Below, piece after piece: positions 2,673 to 17,133 of a DNA stretch of 41,387 nucleotides. Location of the stretch: the NCBI GenBank assembly GCA_946412015.1, contig CAMKGA010000013.1, positions 1 through 41,387 of the forward strand, written 5' to 3'. How positions within the stretch are numbered: the stretch's first letter is position 1; each line of letters starts with the position of its first letter. Under the pieces are notes generated by a model. The model did not search any database and was not told the DNA's origin. It was given only the letters and a program-made list of their open reading frames with translations. The stretch is from an uncultured Caryophanales bacterium (GTDB taxonomy: Bacteria > Bacillota_I > Bacilli_A > RF39 > UBA660). Made by a program: the position numbers and the translations under genes.

Positions 2673-5237
2673 TTATAACCACTCACCAAATTTTTTAATA
2701 TATATACTTTTTACTATTTGTGCAATTACTCCATATATTACTACAAAACCAATTAAATATAAATAATATATAGCTGGTAATATTACGAAGTTAAATCCTG
2801 TTGTAAAGCTTAATACTATAGGTACAGTTATAGTTGCAACTATTGTTAAGAATGTTAATAGTAATAAAGTATTACTTGGTCTAGATTTTGTAATATGATT
2901 TGTTCTTATATAGAATATCATAAATGTTTCTGTAACAATACACTCAACAAACCATGCTGTTTGGAAATAAGCTTGTAAATTCATTGAATTATATTTTAAT
3001 ACAAACCAGAATACTAGGAATGCTACTATATCTGTAATTGATGAGATAACTCCAAATATAACCATAAATCTTCCTATTGATTTTATGTCCCACTTTTTTA
3101 CTTTCCTTAAGAAACCTTCATCAACATTATCATATGGTATACCAATTTGTGATAATTCTACAATAAAATCTTGTATTAACATTTGAATTGGTAATAACGG
3201 TAAGAATGGTAAAAATATAGATGCAATTAAGATACTAAATACATCCCCAAAGTCTTGACTTAAAGCTAGTTTCATATATTTTAATATATTTCCATAAACA
3301 GTTCTACCTTCTATAACACCATTATGTATTACTTCTAAGTTTTGTTCTAAAAGAATTATATCACTTGATTCTTTGGCAATATCTGTTCCTCCATCTACAC
3401 TTATTCCGACATCAGAACTTCTTAGTGCTGGAGCATCATTTACTCCATCACCCATATAACCTACTGAATGTCCATTTTTTCTTAGAATTGATACTACTCT
3501 TTCTTTTTGCATTGGATTCATTCTTGCAAATATATCTATTTCTTCTACTTTTTTACTTAGTTCATAATCATTTAATTCATCTATTTCTTTTCCAGTTAAA
3601 ATTTTAGTTTCTATTCCAACAGCATTACATATATTTTTAGTTGCAAAAGCATTATCTCCAGTTAGTATTTTTATATCTACACCATATTCTTTTAATTTTT
3701 TAATAGTTTGTTCTGCTGATGGTTTTGGTGGATCCAAGAATGCAATTAAGCCAATTAATGTAAAATCCACTTCATCTTCTGCATCATACTCATCTACACC
3801 AGTATATTCTGGTTTAACTGCTAGAGCAATTACTTGCATTCCATCTTTTGCCATTTCTTCGGCTTTTTTATTTACTTTTTCTGTTATTTCTTTTGTAATT
3901 GGAACCTCTTCTCCATTTACTCGCGCCATATCACATACTTTTACTATTTCTTCTAATGCTCCTTTGGCAATTACTCTAATTTTATCATGATGAGTCACAA
4001 CTATTGATGATCTTTTTCTCATATAATCAAATGGAATTTCATCTATTTTTTTATAGTTAGATATATCTACATTATGACTTTTGGCATATTGAATTATAGC
4101 TTTATCTACTATGTTTTTATACCCCGTACCAAGAGAACTATTAACATATGCACATTTTAGTACATAATCATCATCTTCTCCATCAACATTAATATACTTT
4201 TGTAGTTCAATGTTGTTCTTTGTAAGAGTTCCTGTTTTATCAGTACATAACACATCCATAGAACCTAAATTTTGAATTGATTTAATACTTTTAACTAGAG
4301 TATTCTTTTTAGCTAATGCTTTACTTCCTTTAGTTAAGTTAACATTAACTATCACTGGTAACATACTAGGTGTAATACCTACAGCGATTGATAAAGCAAA
4401 CAATATTGCTTGATTGATATTTCCTCTTATCATTCCATAAATTACAAATACTAATATACAAATTATCACCATACATTTAATAAGAAGCCCTGTAATATGA
4501 TTCATACCTTTATCAAAAGTTGTTTCTTCTTTAACTACTTCTTTTTGTTTGTTCATATTACCTATAAATGTATTAAGTCCAGTTTTAATAACTACACCTT
4601 TTCCTTGACCACTTATAACATTACAACCCATTAAACATATATTATTTATATCTATAGGATCATTAGTTTTACTTTCTATATTGATATTCTTTTCTACTGC
4701 TGCACTTTCACCAGTAAATACTGATTGATTAATAAATAAGTCTTTACTTTCAAACAAATATAAATCTGCTGGTATAACACTTCCAGCACTTAATGTAATA
4801 ATATCTCCATAGACTACTTTTTCTTGTCTTATTTCTTTTTGTTTACCTTCTCTTATAACATCAGTAAATATCCTTATTTGTTCTTTTAATTTTTCATTAA
4901 ATTTATATGTGGACCAATCTTGACTAAACCTTATAATAACACTTATTAATATAATACCAAGTATTATAAAAGCACCTATTTTATCATCTGTAATAAAATC
5001 AATTGTGGCAAGAAAAAATAATATTAAGACAAACTTATCCTTTAATGCTTCAAACATAAAATATAATGGGGTTTTCTTTTTTCTATTAGTTGCGATGTTT
5101 TCTCCATATTGTTCTAATCTATGACGAAAAGCATTTATATTTAGTCCATCTTCATTTGTTTTAAATAGTTCCATTATTTCTTCTTTACTTTTAGAAGATA
5201 ATTCTTTGTGCTCTAAATCATTATTCATTATTCTCAC
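2673..5237 (-). CDS. mgtA: Magnesium-translocating P-type ATPase
   Basis: DKTGTLT phosphorylation motif, TGES, GDGVNDAPALR; MgtA-like C-terminal TM region. Confidence 0.92.
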   Translation of the reverse strand: MRIMNNDLEHKELSSKSKEEIMELFKTNEDGLNINAFRHRLEQYGENIATNRKKKTPLYFMFEALKDKFVLILFFLATIDFITDDKIGAFIILGIILISVIIRFSQDWSTYKFNEKLKEQIRIFTDVIREGKQKEIRQEKVVYGDIITLSAGSVIPADLYLFESKDLFINQSVFTGESAAVEKNINIESKTNDPIDINNICLMGCNVISGQGKGVVIKTGLNTFIGNMNKQKEVVKEETTFDKGMNHITGLLIKCMVIICILVFVIYGMIRGNINQAILFALSIAVGITPSMLPVIVNVNLTKGSKALAKKNTLVKSIKSIQNLGSMDVLCTDKTGTLTKNNIELQKYINVDGEDDDYVLKCAYVNSSLGTGYKNIVDKAIIQYAKSHNVDISNYKKIDEIPFDYMRKRSSIVVTHHDKIRVIAKGALEEIVKVCDMARVNGEEVPITKEITEKVNKKAEEMAKDGMQVIALAVKPEYTGVDEYDAEDEVDFTLIGLIAFLDPPKPSAEQTIKKLKEYGVDIKILTGDNAFATKNICNAVGIETKILTGKEIDELNDYELSKKVEEIDIFARMNPMQKERVVSILRKNGHSVGYMGDGVNDAPALRSSDVGISVDGGTDIAKESSDIILLEQNLEVIHNGVIEGRTVYGNILKYMKLALSQDFGDVFSILIASIFLPFLPLLPIQMLIQDFIVELSQIGIPYDNVDEGFLRKVKKWDIKSIGRFMVIFGVISSITDIVAFLVFWFVLKYNSMNLQAYFQTAWFVECIVTETFMIFYIRTNHITKSRPSNTLLLLTFLTIVATITVPIVLSFTTGFNFVILPAIYYLYLIGFVVIYGVIAQIVKSIYIKKFGEWL

Positions 5238-7142: not shown

Positions 7143-9126
7143 AGTTTGACAGTTGTGTAATTAATTAATGATATATTAAGCCTTTTAGAATAAGGCTTTA
7201 TTTTTGTCAAGTTTTTACTATTTTATTGTTGTACATTGTCGCACATTGTGATATAATGTATATAATGAAAGTAGTTGATGAATATGTATCTAAAAGCTTG
7301 TCCTGGCTATAAAGGTAAAATATATTTATCTTTTGTTGAAGGCTATAGAGATGAAAACGGAAAAGCAAAACAAAGGACTATAAAAAAAATCGGATATTTA
7401 GACGATTTAAAAAAACAATATGATGATCCTATTACTTATTTTAAAAATAAAGCTAAAGAAATAAACGAGGATAGAATAAAAGAACTTACTATAAAAAATA
7501 TTGACTCTAAAAAGTTATCTCTTTCTTCCTCAAGAAAAAATTTAGGATATTTTGCTTTGAAGAAAATTTATGATGAAATTGGTTTTAAAGAATTTCTTAA
7601 AATAAAACAAAAAAATTTAAAGCTGGAATATGATTTAAATTCTATTTTAGAACTATTAGTCTTTTCAAGAATTCTCTATCCATCATCAAAAAACGAGACT
7701 TATAATAATAAGGAAATTTTCTTTGATAAATTTAATTTTTCACTAAAAGATTTATATAGAAGTTTAGATTACTTTGATAATTTAAAAGAAGAACTTCAAA
7801 CATTAATCTGGAATAATACAAAAGACTCTTATACCCGTGATGCATCTACTTCTTATTATGACTGTACAAATTATTATTTTGAAGTATCCTATAATGACAA
7901 GGATTTAATTGATGAAAATGGAAATATTTTAGAAAAAGGATATAGAAAAAAAGGTCCTAGTAAAGAACATAGACCAGAGCCTATTATAGGTATGGGTCTT
8001 TTAATGGACAGAACTGGTATACCTTTATCTTATGATTTATTTCCTGGTAATCAAAGTGAAAAAATAACTTTAAGACCAATAGTTAAAAGAACTAAATCTA
8101 AATTTGGAATTGAAAGAACTATTGTTGTAGCTGATCGTGGTTTAAATACTTCCGACAATACATTCTTTTTAGCTGGTAAAAATGATGATAATAAAACAAA
8201 TCATGATGGATATGTATATGGACAGTCCATTAGAGGTGCGGACAAAGAATTTCAAGATTGGGCTTTGAAAGATGATTTTATTACTGATGAAATTGTTGAT
8301 GAAGATGGTAATAATATATTATGGAAACATAAATCTAGAATATTTGCAAAAAAAATACAGATTCAAAGAAACAACAAAAGGTCTAATGTAACTAATATAT
8401 ATCAAAAACAAATGGTATACTACTCACAAAAATACGCAGATAAACAAAAAAAGGAAAGAGAACTTGTTATAGAAAAAGCCAAAGATTTAATAAAAAATCC
8501 TGGAAGATATAATAGAGCTACTTCTATTGGAGCTGCAGGATATATAAACAACATTTCATATGAAAAAGATTCTGGTGTTGTAATTAATAAAAATTTAAGT
8601 TTAAATGAAGACAAAATAAAAGAAGAAGAAAAATTTGATGGCTACTATTCTATAGTAACTAGTGAAAAAAATCTTTCAGATAAAGAAATAAGAGATATTT
8701 ACAAAGGACTTTGGAAAATAGAACAATCTTTTAAAATTACAAAAAGTGAATTTAAAGCTAGGCCAGTTTATGTATGGACAAAAGAACATATTGAAGCTCA
8801 TTTTCTTACTTGTTTTATTTCACTTGTTATAATGAGATTACTTGAACTAAAATTAAATAATAAATACTATTCTGGAACTATTATAGAATCACTTAAAAAA
8901 TATTCATGTAGTAATCTAGAACATGACTTTTATCTATTTGATTATTATGATGAAATAATTAAAAGCATAGAAAATGTTTTTAATGTTGATTTATCACACA
9001 AATACTTAAATCTAAAAGAAATTAGAAAAATTTTAAAATAATTAGAAAAAAAAATATAATGTACAACATTTAAAAAATGAGTTTACCCTTATTTTATTTA
9101 GGTTAACTCATTTTTACTGTCAAACT
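7143..9126 (+). mobile_element. IS1634-like insertion sequence
   Basis: Terminal inverted repeats AGTTTGACAGT (7143-7153) / ACTGTCAAACT (9116-9126) flanking one DDE transposase. Confidence 0.85.
7275..9041 (+). CDS. IS1634-family transposase
   Basis: 588 aa; VADRGLNTSDN, GYYSIVTSEKNLSDKEIRDIYKGLWKIEQSFKITKSEFKARPVYVWTKEHIEAHFLTCFISLV. Confidence 0.9.
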   Translation: MMNMYLKACPGYKGKIYLSFVEGYRDENGKAKQRTIKKIGYLDDLKKQYDDPITYFKNKAKEINEDRIKELTIKNIDSKKLSLSSSRKNLGYFALKKIYDEIGFKEFLKIKQKNLKLEYDLNSILELLVFSRILYPSSKNETYNNKEIFFDKFNFSLKDLYRSLDYFDNLKEELQTLIWNNTKDSYTRDASTSYYDCTNYYFEVSYNDKDLIDENGNILEKGYRKKGPSKEHRPEPIIGMGLLMDRTGIPLSYDLFPGNQSEKITLRPIVKRTKSKFGIERTIVVADRGLNTSDNTFFLAGKNDDNKTNHDGYVYGQSIRGADKEFQDWALKDDFITDEIVDEDGNNILWKHKSRIFAKKIQIQRNNKRSNVTNIYQKQMVYYSQKYADKQKKERELVIEKAKDLIKNPGRYNRATSIGAAGYINNISYEKDSGVVINKNLSLNEDKIKEEEKFDGYYSIVTSEKNLSDKEIRDIYKGLWKIEQSFKITKSEFKARPVYVWTKEHIEAHFLTCFISLVIMRLLELKLNNKYYSGTIIESLKKYSCSNLEHDFYLFDYYDEIIKSIENVFNVDLSHKYLNLKEIRKILK

Positions 9127-13521: not shown

Positions 13522-13713
13522 TACTTTTTTTATGTATTTGCCATTTTTTTACATAAGTTTTACATACAAAAAAAAATCACAGTTCTAGATTATACCATTC
13601 TTCAAATACTCTACCAAAATACATAATCATCTGTAATATAGTTTTCCTTGTATATACAAGAGGAATAACACTTGTTTTCCTAGGCTTTTCGTTAAAGACC
13701 ATAATTCAATAAC

Positions 13714-13728
13714 TCTTAGTTTCTAAGA
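13714..13728 (-). other. Hairpin immediately 3' of TR (tcttag-aaa-ctaaga)
   Basis: 6-bp perfect inverted repeat 4 nt from TR end. Confidence 0.5.
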
Positions 13729-13731
13729 AAT

Positions 13732-13819
13732 CTGTACGGACAACGCCGTTGTTGTTGTTGACGGAATTCGATCCAAGTTCGCCATTGTTGTTCACGTTCC
13801 AAACATTGGAAGACGAATT
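13732..13819 (-). repeat. DGR template repeat (TR)
   Basis: Coding-sense AATTCGTCTTCCAATGTTTGGAACGTGAACAACAATGGCGAACTTGGATCGAATTCCGTCAACAACAACAACGGCGTTGTCCGTACAG; matches VR except at adenines. Confidence 0.95.
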
Positions 13820-13856
13820 CACATCTTATACAGTATTAGCCCTAATAAAATAATTA

Positions 13857-15086
13857 TCATTCACACATTATAACACTACCATCATCCTCAATTCTAACTA
13901 TCTTACTATTTAATTCTAGTAATTCTTCATAACCATCATAGAAATCCTTCTCATATCTATTTAATGTCTTACTTATAAGATTACAAGCATTACCATATTT
14001 AAGATGCCCTAAATAGCTCATCTTTACTTGTCTTAACTTATCTATTTCAATTCTTCCACTAGTATATAATTTATACATATTCTTCATTTTTCTTTTAAAC
14101 TTCTTTTTAGTTTGATTCTTAACTTTAACAATTAACTTATTATTTTTCCTAATATATTTAAATCCTAAAAACTCAAAACCATCATCTATATGATATATTC
14201 TAGTTTTATTATTTAACTCTAACTTATAATCAGTAACTATTCTATTAATTTCTTTTAAACAATACTTTAAATAATCTTTATTATCATATACTAACAGTCC
14301 ATCATCGTTATACCTAATATAAAGAAATGGTTTTAATTTTTCCACAATATAATCATCTAACTTATGAAGATAAACTACCGCGAACGCTTGTGAGCTCATC
14401 GAACCAATCGAGCATCCAACACCTTTCCTACACAAAGGTATATCCATAATCTCTTTAATTAATTTATCTTTATTAGAACTATTACTCTTCTCTAACTTAC
14501 TAATCTCTCTATTCTTAATCTTAATAATCTCTTTATTAATATAATCATGATTAGTAGAATCAATAATAGTATCTAATATATTAATTGCATCCCTATCTTT
14601 AATTTTAGATCTGATGATATTCTTCAGAATATCATGGTCTAAATTAAAGAAATACTTCCTTATATCAAATTTTAATATATATAAATCTTTATTTATATTC
14701 TTTCTTAAACACTCTTTTACCTTCTTAATACCAATATGAGTACCTTTACCAATCCTAGTTGCGATATTATTATCAATTAACAATGGTTCAAATACATCTA
14801 CTAAGAAATATTTACTAACTAAGTGATTAACTATCTTATCAGTAATAGACTGTGCCATAATAAGTCTTACCTTAGGTTCTTTAACTAAGAATATATTATA
14901 CTTATAAGGTTTATATATCTTATTATCTAACATATACTTAATCCTAGCCATATTAGATGTATAATATTCATCAAACCTTTCTATCTTCCCCTTATTCTTA
15001 GTATTAACCCTAACCTTCTTATCATACATCTCTTTAATATTCTTAATATCAGTTATCTTACTATATAAATTACCTATTCTCTTCAT
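13857..15086 (-). CDS. DGR-type reverse transcriptase
   Basis: FDIRKYFFNLDHDIL, IGSMSSQ (DGR-type in place of QGxxxSP), RYNDDGLLVY catalytic motif, FLGFKYIRKNNKL. Confidence 0.95.
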   Translation of the reverse strand: MKRIGNLYSKITDIKNIKEMYDKKVRVNTKNKGKIERFDEYYTSNMARIKYMLDNKIYKPYKYNIFLVKEPKVRLIMAQSITDKIVNHLVSKYFLVDVFEPLLIDNNIATRIGKGTHIGIKKVKECLRKNINKDLYILKFDIRKYFFNLDHDILKNIIRSKIKDRDAINILDTIIDSTNHDYINKEIIKIKNREISKLEKSNSSNKDKLIKEIMDIPLCRKGVGCSIGSMSSQAFAVVYLHKLDDYIVEKLKPFLYIRYNDDGLLVYDNKDYLKYCLKEINRIVTDYKLELNNKTRIYHIDDGFEFLGFKYIRKNNKLIVKVKNQTKKKFKRKMKNMYKLYTSGRIEIDKLRQVKMSYLGHLKYGNACNLISKTLNRYEKDFYDGYEELLELNSKIVRIEDDGSVIMCE

Positions 15087-15405
15087 AATTCATCCAACCA
15101 TAAACCATCTTATTAATCTCAAGTAAATAATCACCAATACGTTTAAACTTCTTATAACTAATCAATTGATAATCGCAACTAACTTTAATATAATACTCAA
15201 TCATTTTAATATCTACAACAATATCTTTCTTAACATTTATATCTTTACATATATTTGCTTTATAAGTTAATTTAAGTAAATCATAAAAAGTATTCATAAT
15301 ATTATCTTTTAAGAATTTATATTCATGAGAATAGTTACAAGTAGTCTTTCTAACCAACTCAATAGTCTTCTTTATCTTAATAGATATAATTAACTTATCC
15401 TGCAT
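15070..15405 (-). CDS. avd: Avd-like DGR accessory protein
   Basis: 111 aa, all-helical; C-term SCDYQLISYKKFKRIGDYLLEINKMVYGWMNY resembles Avd family; directly upstream of RT. Confidence 0.8.
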   Translation of the reverse strand: MQDKLIISIKIKKTIELVRKTTCNYSHEYKFLKDNIMNTFYDLLKLTYKANICKDINVKKDIVVDIKMIEYYIKVSCDYQLISYKKFKRIGDYLLEINKMVYGWMNYEENR

Positions 15406-15803
15406 ATAATACCTTCAATACTACTTACAATATCTTTAATATTAGGATTTAATATATTATTACTTAATATATCATTAATACTATTAATCTTATTCTTAAT
15501 AATAAAATAATCATTACTACAATACTTAGAATAATTATTTCTCATAAACTTAGAATATGTAATATCATTATTATCAACAGTAATATAATTAATCTCATAT
15601 TTAGTAAGTATTGTTCTTACTCTATTCAAACTATTTATTGGAAAACCAACTCTAATATACTTACTTAACTCTTTAATCTTATAATTAAACAATTTATTAA
15701 TAATAATTGCATCATCATTTAAACAATCATAGAAATTACCTGCCTTAATTATTATTAAAGACTTAGGATATTTCTCCTTTAACTTAATATATTTCTCTAA
15801 CAT
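15390..15803 (-). CDS. MutS domain-I-like DGR accessory protein
   Basis: LEKYIKLKEKYPKSLIIIKAGNFYDCLNDDAIIINKLF...IRVGFPINSLNRVRTILTKYEINYITVD resembles MutS domain I (YLxLKxxxPxxLLFYRMGDFYELFxxDA...AGIPxHxxxxYLxxL). Confidence 0.75.
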   Translation of the reverse strand: MLEKYIKLKEKYPKSLIIIKAGNFYDCLNDDAIIINKLFNYKIKELSKYIRVGFPINSLNRVRTILTKYEINYITVDNNDITYSKFMRNNYSKYCSNDYFIIKNKINSINDILSNNILNPNIKDIVSSIEGIICRIS

Positions 15804-15913
15804 AACATAATTCCTCCATCATAAATCATACTTTATAATTATTCATACATCATACAACTTACAACAAACTACATTATGCCTAAAACTAACACCTTCTTTC
15901 AATAAAAAATAAA

Positions 15914-15946
15914 GAAATAGCATGATGATATAAATCACACTATTTC
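15914..15946. other. Imperfect hairpin gaaatag...ctatttc
   Basis: 7-bp inverted repeat in the target-MutS-like spacer. Confidence 0.4.
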
Positions 15947-15982
15947 ACTACTCTAATCACATTTAATCGCATGCTCACTCAC

Positions 15983-16067
15983 GCATCTTCGATGCCATCG
16001 TTCGCTTTATACGGCAAATTACGCTCCGCTATTTGCCTATTCCAATGATTTGTTTCACAAATCATTG
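15983..16067. other. Cluster of three hairpins 3' of the DGR target gene
   Basis: gcatc-ttc-gatgc (15983-15995); ggcaaat...atttgcc (16013-16037); caatgatttgt-ttc-acaaatcattg (16043-16067, 11 bp perfect). Confidence 0.7.
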
Positions 16068-16112
16068 CATTCCCTATTCACTCTATACCTCTTTCAAACT
16101 CAACACGGTTAT

Positions 16113-16129
16113 TTAGACTATTAGTCTAA
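16113..16129. other. Hairpin overlapping target stop codon (ttagact-att-agtctaa)
   Basis: 7-bp perfect stem, 3-nt loop, about 40 bp 3' of VR. Confidence 0.6.
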
Positions 16130-17133
16130 TTTCCTGTATTTGAGATATTAGATTTAGAGATTGTTATAACTGGGCGGACAACGCCGTCGAAGTCGCCGTA
16201 GACGGAAAACGATCCAAGCTCGCCAAAGTGGTTCACGCGCCAAACAGAGGAAGACGAATCAGTATATGGAGTATTTGTCCAATACCAGTAATTATTGTTA
16301 TACATCCAATTATATTTTGCAAAATCTCCTGTAGCAACTGCGCCACATCCACCACAAGGATCATATTCTTTTCTTTCGGTTTCAATCTCATCTTTAGAAA
16401 TTAATCTTACTTCTGTTGCTGCTGGAGCTTTTGCAGTTTTCCATGCATCTACTACATATTTAATCTCACTTGATGCATAATCAGTCTTACATCCTGTACT
16501 TACCCAAGTATTATTTACATTTCCACAAGTTTCACTTGTATAATATGCCATTCCTCCATAACCATTACTATTATATGCAGTCCCTACTGAATCATATGTA
16601 TATCTGTTTACATGTCCTGCACCAAATTGATTTACCTCTGCTACACTTAATGGTTCTTCTTTTAGTAGGGTTACAGACTCTTCAGTTGTATCTGAATCTT
16701 TAATTACATAATAATCTACATTATTATATGTTACTTGATCTCCTACTTGATATGCAGTATATGTTGGTGCTTGTGGAGTTTTATCAGAACCATAAGTATA
16801 ATTATCTACACTTCTACCTGCAACTGTACAACCCGCTAAATATACTGATGAATCAGTATTGATTTGTGTAGTAGAACATACTACTTGATTACCAGAGTAT
16901 TCAATTGTTAATTGTGATACTTCGGTTGGAAATTTACCTGTATCTAGTAAATATCCAGCAATTGCAAGTTCAATAGACCTACCATATACATCAACTGATC
17001 TTTTATCTGCAGAAATTCTAGCTTTTCTTATTATATTCATAACAAGTGGTGTCACTATAAGTGCTAGTATTGCCATAATTACTAATACAGCGATTAATTC
17101 TATGAGCGTAAATGCTCTATTACTTTTTTTCAT
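16126..17133 (-). CDS. DGR target: type IV prepilin-like protein with C-terminal VR
   Basis: Class III signal NRAFTLIELIAVLVIMAILALIVTPL; C-term WRVNHFGELGSFSVYGDFDGVVRPVITISK is the VR product. Confidence 0.95.
   Translation of the reverse strand: MKKSNRAFTLIELIAVLVIMAILALIVTPLVMNIIRKARISADKRSVDVYGRSIELAIAGYLLDTGKFPTEVSQLTIEYSGNQVVCSTTQINTDSSVYLAGCTVAGRSVDNYTYGSDKTPQAPTYTAYQVGDQVTYNNVDYYVIKDSDTTEESVTLLKEEPLSVAEVNQFGAGHVNRYTYDSVGTAYNSNGYGGMAYYTSETCGNVNNTWVSTGCKTDYASSEIKYVVDAWKTAKAPAATEVRLISKDEIETERKEYDPCGGCGAVATGDFAKYNWMYNNNYWYWTNTPYTDSSSSVWRVNHFGELGSFSVYGDFDGVVRPVITISKSNISNTGN
16170..16260 (-). repeat. DGR variable repeat (VR)
   Basis: Aligns with TR; mismatches at coding-strand A apart from one T-C at the 3' boundary and a 3-nt length difference. 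Confidence 0.95.

Follow-up and report, generated by a model that had tools for sequence, protein, structure and literature searches.

Components of the DGR in the window

The stretch of DNA analysed here, referred to throughout as the window, is 41,387 nucleotides long and contains an apparently intact diversity-generating retroelement (DGR) whose parts are arranged on the minus strand in the order target gene (17133–16126), ORF with a MutS domain I-like N-terminus, Avd-like ORF, reverse transcriptase (RT) gene and template repeat (TR, 13819–13737). The coordinates of these and associated features are collected in Table 1. The reading frames of the RT, the Avd-like protein and the MutS_I-like ORF are all intact. 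Motifs read from the RT translation include IGSMSSQ in place of QGxxxSP, which we take to be typical of DGRs, and a YNDD active site. The Avd-like ORF matched the bAvd model with 38.8 bits, just below the cut-off of 40 (E 1.4e-9), and the NCBIfam model DivGenRetAVD with an E-value of 4.6e-10, below the family cut-off; its position is conserved in relatives. The 137-aa ORF matched MutS_I with 33.8 bits against a cut-off of 20.6 and its place next to Avd is kept in most DGRs related to this one. MutS-like accessories of DGRs are known, and this ORF may have an accessory role here.

Table 1. Features of the DGR and its target, in window coordinates
Feature	Position	Strand	Evidence
DGR target, 335-aa modular prepilin	16126..17133	minus	ATG ORF; N_methyl match; AlphaFold2 model
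Pilin module, ~residues 1–118	16780..17133	minus	PDB pilin matches; identity with short prepilin
C-terminal domain, residues 123–335, DUF6273-like	16126..16767	minus	weak DUF6273 match; model of its own; BFVD matches
Variable repeat (VR), 86 bases near target 3' end	16175..16260	minus	repeat search and alignment
Structured intergenic element, target to MutS_I-like ORF	15885..16132	minus	folding z -4.24; recurrence
Small ORF with MutS domain I-like N-terminus, 137 aa	15390..15803	minus	MutS_I; relatives
Avd-like accessory protein, 111 aa	15070..15405	minus	bAvd, DivGenRetAVD
DGR reverse transcriptase, 409 aa	13857..15086	minus	RVT_1 E 1e-13; conserved in relatives
Template repeat (TR), downstream of RT	13737..13819	minus	repeat search and alignment
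TR-following spacer	13580..13736	minus	conservation in prepilin-type DGRs

Two noncoding elements accompany these genes. The spacer that follows the TR is 97% identical to that of a sister species and 70–77% identical to those of other prepilin-type DGRs, shows no unusual folding energy (z 0.49), and presumably belongs to the DGR RNA. The intergenic element folds strongly, had no match in Rfam, and may serve in target recognition or regulation. A portion of its hairpin is repeated ~60 nt after a VR-bearing prepilin gene on contig C4 of the same genome (L107:6095-6138), and is also found at C14:7194 and in another genome (L134).

The 335-aa target, with N-terminal residues MKKSNRAFTLIELIAVLVIMAILALIV and C-terminal residues GVVRPVITISKSNISNTGN, consists of a class III signal, a pilin module and a DUF6273-like C-terminal domain that carries the VR. 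The class III prepilin signal proposed in the initial annotation was confirmed by matches above cut-off to both Pfam N_methyl (30.2 bits against 21.2, E 2.9e-7) and NCBIfam TIGR02532 (27.7 bits against 16.3). An hmmsearch against the PDB matched the pilin module to solved type IV pilins (MshA, GspG, PilA and others), and alignment with these places F8 at position +1 of the mature protein. The Ala noted there in place of the usual Gly before this Phe is ordinary here, as Ala at position -1 is common among the prepilin paralogs of this genome, many of which read KAFTLIE instead of KGFTLIE. In an AlphaFold2 model of the full-length protein (mean pLDDT 87.7), residues 10–65 form a helix and residues 84–104 a pilin sheet, followed by a separate C-terminal domain. 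No match to the target was found among 50,697 phage records, and the relatives of the RT lie in cellular genomes, with only two distant matches (24%) in viral contigs; a phage origin of the target is therefore not supported.

The C-terminal domain scored 19.6 bits with DUF6273 (PF19789) against the Pfam cut-off of 23.5. Because the full-length model gave no clean match in the PDB, this domain was modelled alone (pLDDT 93.3, pTM 0.88). Its structure matches in BFVD are phage DUF6273 and tail proteins (best E 2.3e-6, probability 1.00). In the PDB, EgtB, OvoA and C-type lectins recur among the structure matches, all of them weak (E > 0.1), and the only match to reach significance is 9qa6 (E 8.5e-4); a sequence search of the PDB with this domain gave no match. 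A C-type-lectin/FGE-like fold is suggestive only. Most of the variable codons are predicted to lie in loops.

Template, variable repeat and related DGRs

When the TR and VR were aligned with a gap of one codon in a run of AAC codons, all 17 mismatches fell at adenines of the TR (hypergeometric P 5.3e-12, with A at 25 of the 83 TR positions), bearing out, together with the location of the VR close to the 3' end of the gene, the earlier proposal that a DGR diversifies a prepilin-like protein at its C-terminus. The TR and VR are the same at every one of the 58 non-A positions in this alignment, including those at which the TR of the sister species differs. The AAC run comprises four codons in the TR and five AAC-derived codons in the VR, and is longer still in the VR of the sister species, indicating that its length changes between TR and VR.

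This sister species (G004), which belongs to the same genus and whose contigs match uncultured bacterium RUG12438, carries the same DGR cassette. Identity is 95% for the RT and 93–97% across the RT, Avd and MutS_I-like ORF, and cassette and target together are ~89% identical over ~3.6 kb (window positions 13570-17130). The flanks that were compared share no similarity and the flanking genes differ. Because the similarity covers only the cassette and target, the two appear to have moved as a unit. In the sister species, 13 of 13 TR/VR mismatches are at A (P 3e-8). Its TR and that of the window differ at several bases other than adenine, and each species' VR tracks its own TR at all 16 informative non-A positions. 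Copying from the TR predicts this pattern and simple descent of the VR does not, providing evidence of retrohoming; the agreement at 58 of 58 non-A positions, including those where the sister TR differs, implies retrohoming after the two TRs had diverged. On this indirect evidence, we regard the replacement of the VR by TR-derived cDNA as real in the two species. The DGR at this locus is likewise real, and we infer that it is active at present.

Scanning named genomes yielded 80 related loci, all from uncultured bacteria and mostly from Bacilli MAGs with gut-sample titles. The order of the MutS_I-like ORF, Avd and RT is conserved in relatives. The consensus of the aligned RT relatives is YMDD, and YNDD is found in the window and the sister species. 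TR/VR pairs were identified in 48 of the loci, giving 55 pairs, of which 7 have a prepilin target (6 loci, 5 MAGs), 31 have other complete N-termini, judged by eye to be mostly membrane anchors, and 17 are cut off. Counting that of the window, six genomes have prepilin DGR targets. As most related targets have non-prepilin N-termini, it appears that one kind of C-terminal domain is placed on various surface anchors, of which pilins are one choice. In one related DGR (L153, genome G009) the target combines repeats of phage tail fibres with an end like DUF6273, which suggests a prophage.

Pilus genes, prepilin paralogs and further DGRs in the genome

No pilus assembly gene lies within the window, as the initial annotation had stated, and its suggestion that the target would depend on machinery encoded elsewhere withstood a search of the genome for a prepilin peptidase and pilus machinery: PilB-, PilC- and PilD-like proteins are encoded on other contigs. 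The PilD-like prepilin peptidase (A24_N at C21:15216, E 3.3e-33) adjoins a GspF/PilC-like protein, and a GspE/PilB-like ATPase is encoded on contig C16. Neither the ATPase nor the platform protein reaches its curated equivalog cut-off, so any assignment to one exact filament type is tentative. On C21 the PilC-like protein and the peptidase are followed by a 470-aa ORF with multiple membrane segments and then by a 124-aa prepilin (C21:17429), which is 64% identical to the target over 119 residues (target residues 3–121). By eye, the 470-aa ORF (L077:6977-8389) resembles an O-antigen ligase or pilin glycosyltransferase; it had no NCBIfam match. Contig C9 encodes a Tad-type system. No PilT-type ATPase was found in the genome, making retraction doubtful.

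The genome, a 57-contig draft of 1.69 Mb that is probably a MAG and in which several contigs break at prepilin genes, gave 43 matches to N_methyl, corresponding to ~40 prepilins. Other families of the class have 0–6 matches, and genomes of the same genus 12–35, with the exception of one that has none. The pilin module is highly conserved among the paralogs, and of 34 prepilin ORFs in the genome stretches examined, 21 strongly share the C-terminal domain of the target, as scored with a profile trained on most of them. At the VR position, defined as the segment just before the conserved (V)RPV motif, GC3 was at least 0.4 in 15 of 27 testable prepilins, a value reached by none of 839 control windows from other parts of these genes. 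Because the TRs are G+C-rich and the genome is A+T-rich, such a patch looks like a DGR footprint. The AT-rich VR regions of the remaining paralogs, about half, may be older copies that have been ameliorated. The TR of the window strongly matches only its own target and weakly matches the footprint-bearing class A paralogs on C11, C9, C1, C25 and C7, so the templates of these VRs have been lost, have diverged or were not found.

A second DGR was identified on contig C26, comprising a 490-aa prepilin target that reaches the DUF6273 cut-off (25.6 bits), a template (TR2), a MutS_I-like ORF, Avd, and an RT ~40% identical to that of the window. A near-identical copy on C8 (L073, C8:48000-53897) has a frameshifted RT and another TR2 allele and adjoins the contig end. 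TR2 matches five prepilin C-termini, on C26, C43, C32, C39 and C27, with scores of 92–147 compared with maxima of at most 37 for shuffled sequences, and most of the mismatches are at adenines. Signatures of both TR2 alleles occur together in some VRs, which thus are not assignable to one extant template. An 84-aa ORF (L072:3746-4000) follows the RT of the second DGR; it is also present in the C8 copy, is weakly recognizable in L149 and L150, and has no family match.

Several other candidates were rejected. A potential third template at C39:122-227 (L075) has a TR2-like 5' part; its 3' part runs on into target-like coding sequence, and we read it as a TR/VR hybrid. The short stretches matched at C11:40481 and C22:28171 resemble TRs but are remnants of VR ends. 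A third RT, on C2 (L074:7003-7935), is retron-like and not part of a DGR; its best PADLOC match is RT_Ec107-like (E 1.4e-117), and it lies ~2.7 kb after a prepilin paralog. Around a prepilin on contig C14 (L086) are DGR fossils, namely a remnant of a TR spacer (4139-4257) and an RT fragment (7772-7888).

Proposed explanation and comparison with known systems

Taken together, we consider it likely that a cellular DGR diversifies a portion of the C-terminal domain in a modular type IV prepilin and that this domain is displayed through the filament as a binding module. This reading builds on features that can be seen in the DNA itself: the cassette, the adenine-biased TR/VR pair, the tracking of the TR between species, the machinery genes, the paralog family and the VR footprints. 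The RT, with Avd and the MutS_I-like accessory, would copy a transcript of the TR with errors at adenines, and the cDNA would then replace the VR of the target gene. The prepilin peptidase of the genome would cleave the target, allowing it to enter a type IV filament via a pilin module that closely resembles the short prepilin encoded beside pilD, and the variable C-terminal domain would be displayed, putatively at the tip, and bind ligands there. The purpose would presumably be adhesion, or evasion of phages or immunity. On the same reading, other prepilins at unlinked sites have been diversified by the second, divergent DGR with its TR variants. There is about an even chance, in our estimation, that a dozen or more unlinked modular type IV pilins had their binding domains rewritten by several DGR copies, which belong to two divergent lineages and whose TR variants changed over time, yielding a large renewable set of filament-displayed binders in the 1.7-Mb genome of one gut bacterium. 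The family as a whole suggests a large self-diversifying set of surface adhesins.

The DGR could be real and its target not part of a filament, with the prepilin N-terminus acting as a signal and membrane anchor that leaves the C-terminal domain at the cell surface. This DGR lineage seems to tolerate any surface anchor, given the 31 complete non-prepilin N-termini (mostly single membrane anchors or signal peptides) against 7 prepilin rows among related targets. We nevertheless find this unlikely, as the pilin module exceeds a signal, with a 56-residue helix and a beta-sheet in the model and 64% identity over 119 residues to the short prepilin beside pilD, and as ~40 prepilins together with PilB- and PilC-like proteins are not easily accounted for if no filaments are made. 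Whether adhesion is the main role of the DGR-pilin system is a separate matter. Type IV pili often serve as phage receptors and antigens, and a large paralog family with variable patches recalls the repertoires of antigenic variation, consistent with evasion of pilus-binding phages or host immunity. The pilin module, however, is highly conserved and the variation does not extend beyond ~86 bases of a domain like phage DUF6273/tail receptor-binding proteins, which suggests ligand binding and renders evasion as the main role rather unlikely.

It is very unlikely that the DGR is a relic that diversified pilins in the past and no longer works. Decayed copies do exist in this genome, including the frameshifted RT on C8, the RT and TR-spacer fragments on C14, and the orphan VR ends on C11 and C22; in about half of the paralogs the VR region is AT-rich and appears ameliorated, and the RT of the window departs from the YMDD consensus of its aligned relatives. 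The sister species also has YNDD, however, the three protein-coding genes of the cassette are intact and 93–97% identical to their counterparts there, and the agreement of TR and VR at every non-A position implies retrohoming after the TRs diverged. That an ordinary pilin gene merely lies beside an unrelated RT, with the likeness of TR and VR due to chance or a repeat artefact, has nothing in its favour beyond the AT-rich, repeat-prone sequence. It is refuted by the confinement of all 17 mismatches to adenines (P 5e-12), the independent pattern in the sister species and the same gene order in relatives, leaving it a negligible probability.

If the filament-display reading is correct, DGR-made binding diversity is carried not only by phage tail fibres and surface lipoproteins but also by type IV filaments, and an uncultured group of gut Bacilli has a programmed way to change what its pili bind. 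Attachment to the host, food particles or other microbes would become testable, and several templates with many targets per genome would provide a natural system in which to study target choice by DGRs. Both modular pilins and DGRs with several targets are already known. No description of type IV prepilins as DGR targets was found in the open-access papers searched.

The DGR of the window resembles those of Bordetella phage BPP-1 and the cellular DGRs of Legionella, Treponema and cyanobacteria in having an RT, Avd, and an adenine-specific TR/VR pair near the 3' end of the target. It differs from them in its type IV prepilin target, a TR downstream of the RT, a MutS_I-like ORF between target and Avd, and the near absence of related DGRs from viral contigs. 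Phage DUF6273 tail and receptor-binding proteins match the C-terminal domain in predicted structure, whereas here the domain is on a cellular prepilin and sequence identity in the best matches is 7–15%. The pilus of Bacteroides ovatus is of a different kind from type IV. A Bacteroides pilus-tip target with a C-type lectin domain has been noted among DGR targets and is homologous to the B. ovatus pilin tip (PMC6199706). What it would share with the present target is a pilus-associated, possibly lectin-like domain; the N-terminus here is that of a type IV prepilin. Remote paralogous targets are known for cyanobacterial DGRs (PMC7517822), and modular type IV pilins are widespread (PMC8179133). 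Among the latter, PilB and PilC of Streptococcus sanguinis, a monoderm with assembly homologues, likewise combine a small pilin module bearing a class III signal with a larger C-terminal module (PMC8179133). In contrast to those pilins, the putative adhesin module here resembles DUF6273 instead of vWA or ConA, is diversified by a DGR, and belongs to a protein with dozens of paralogs.
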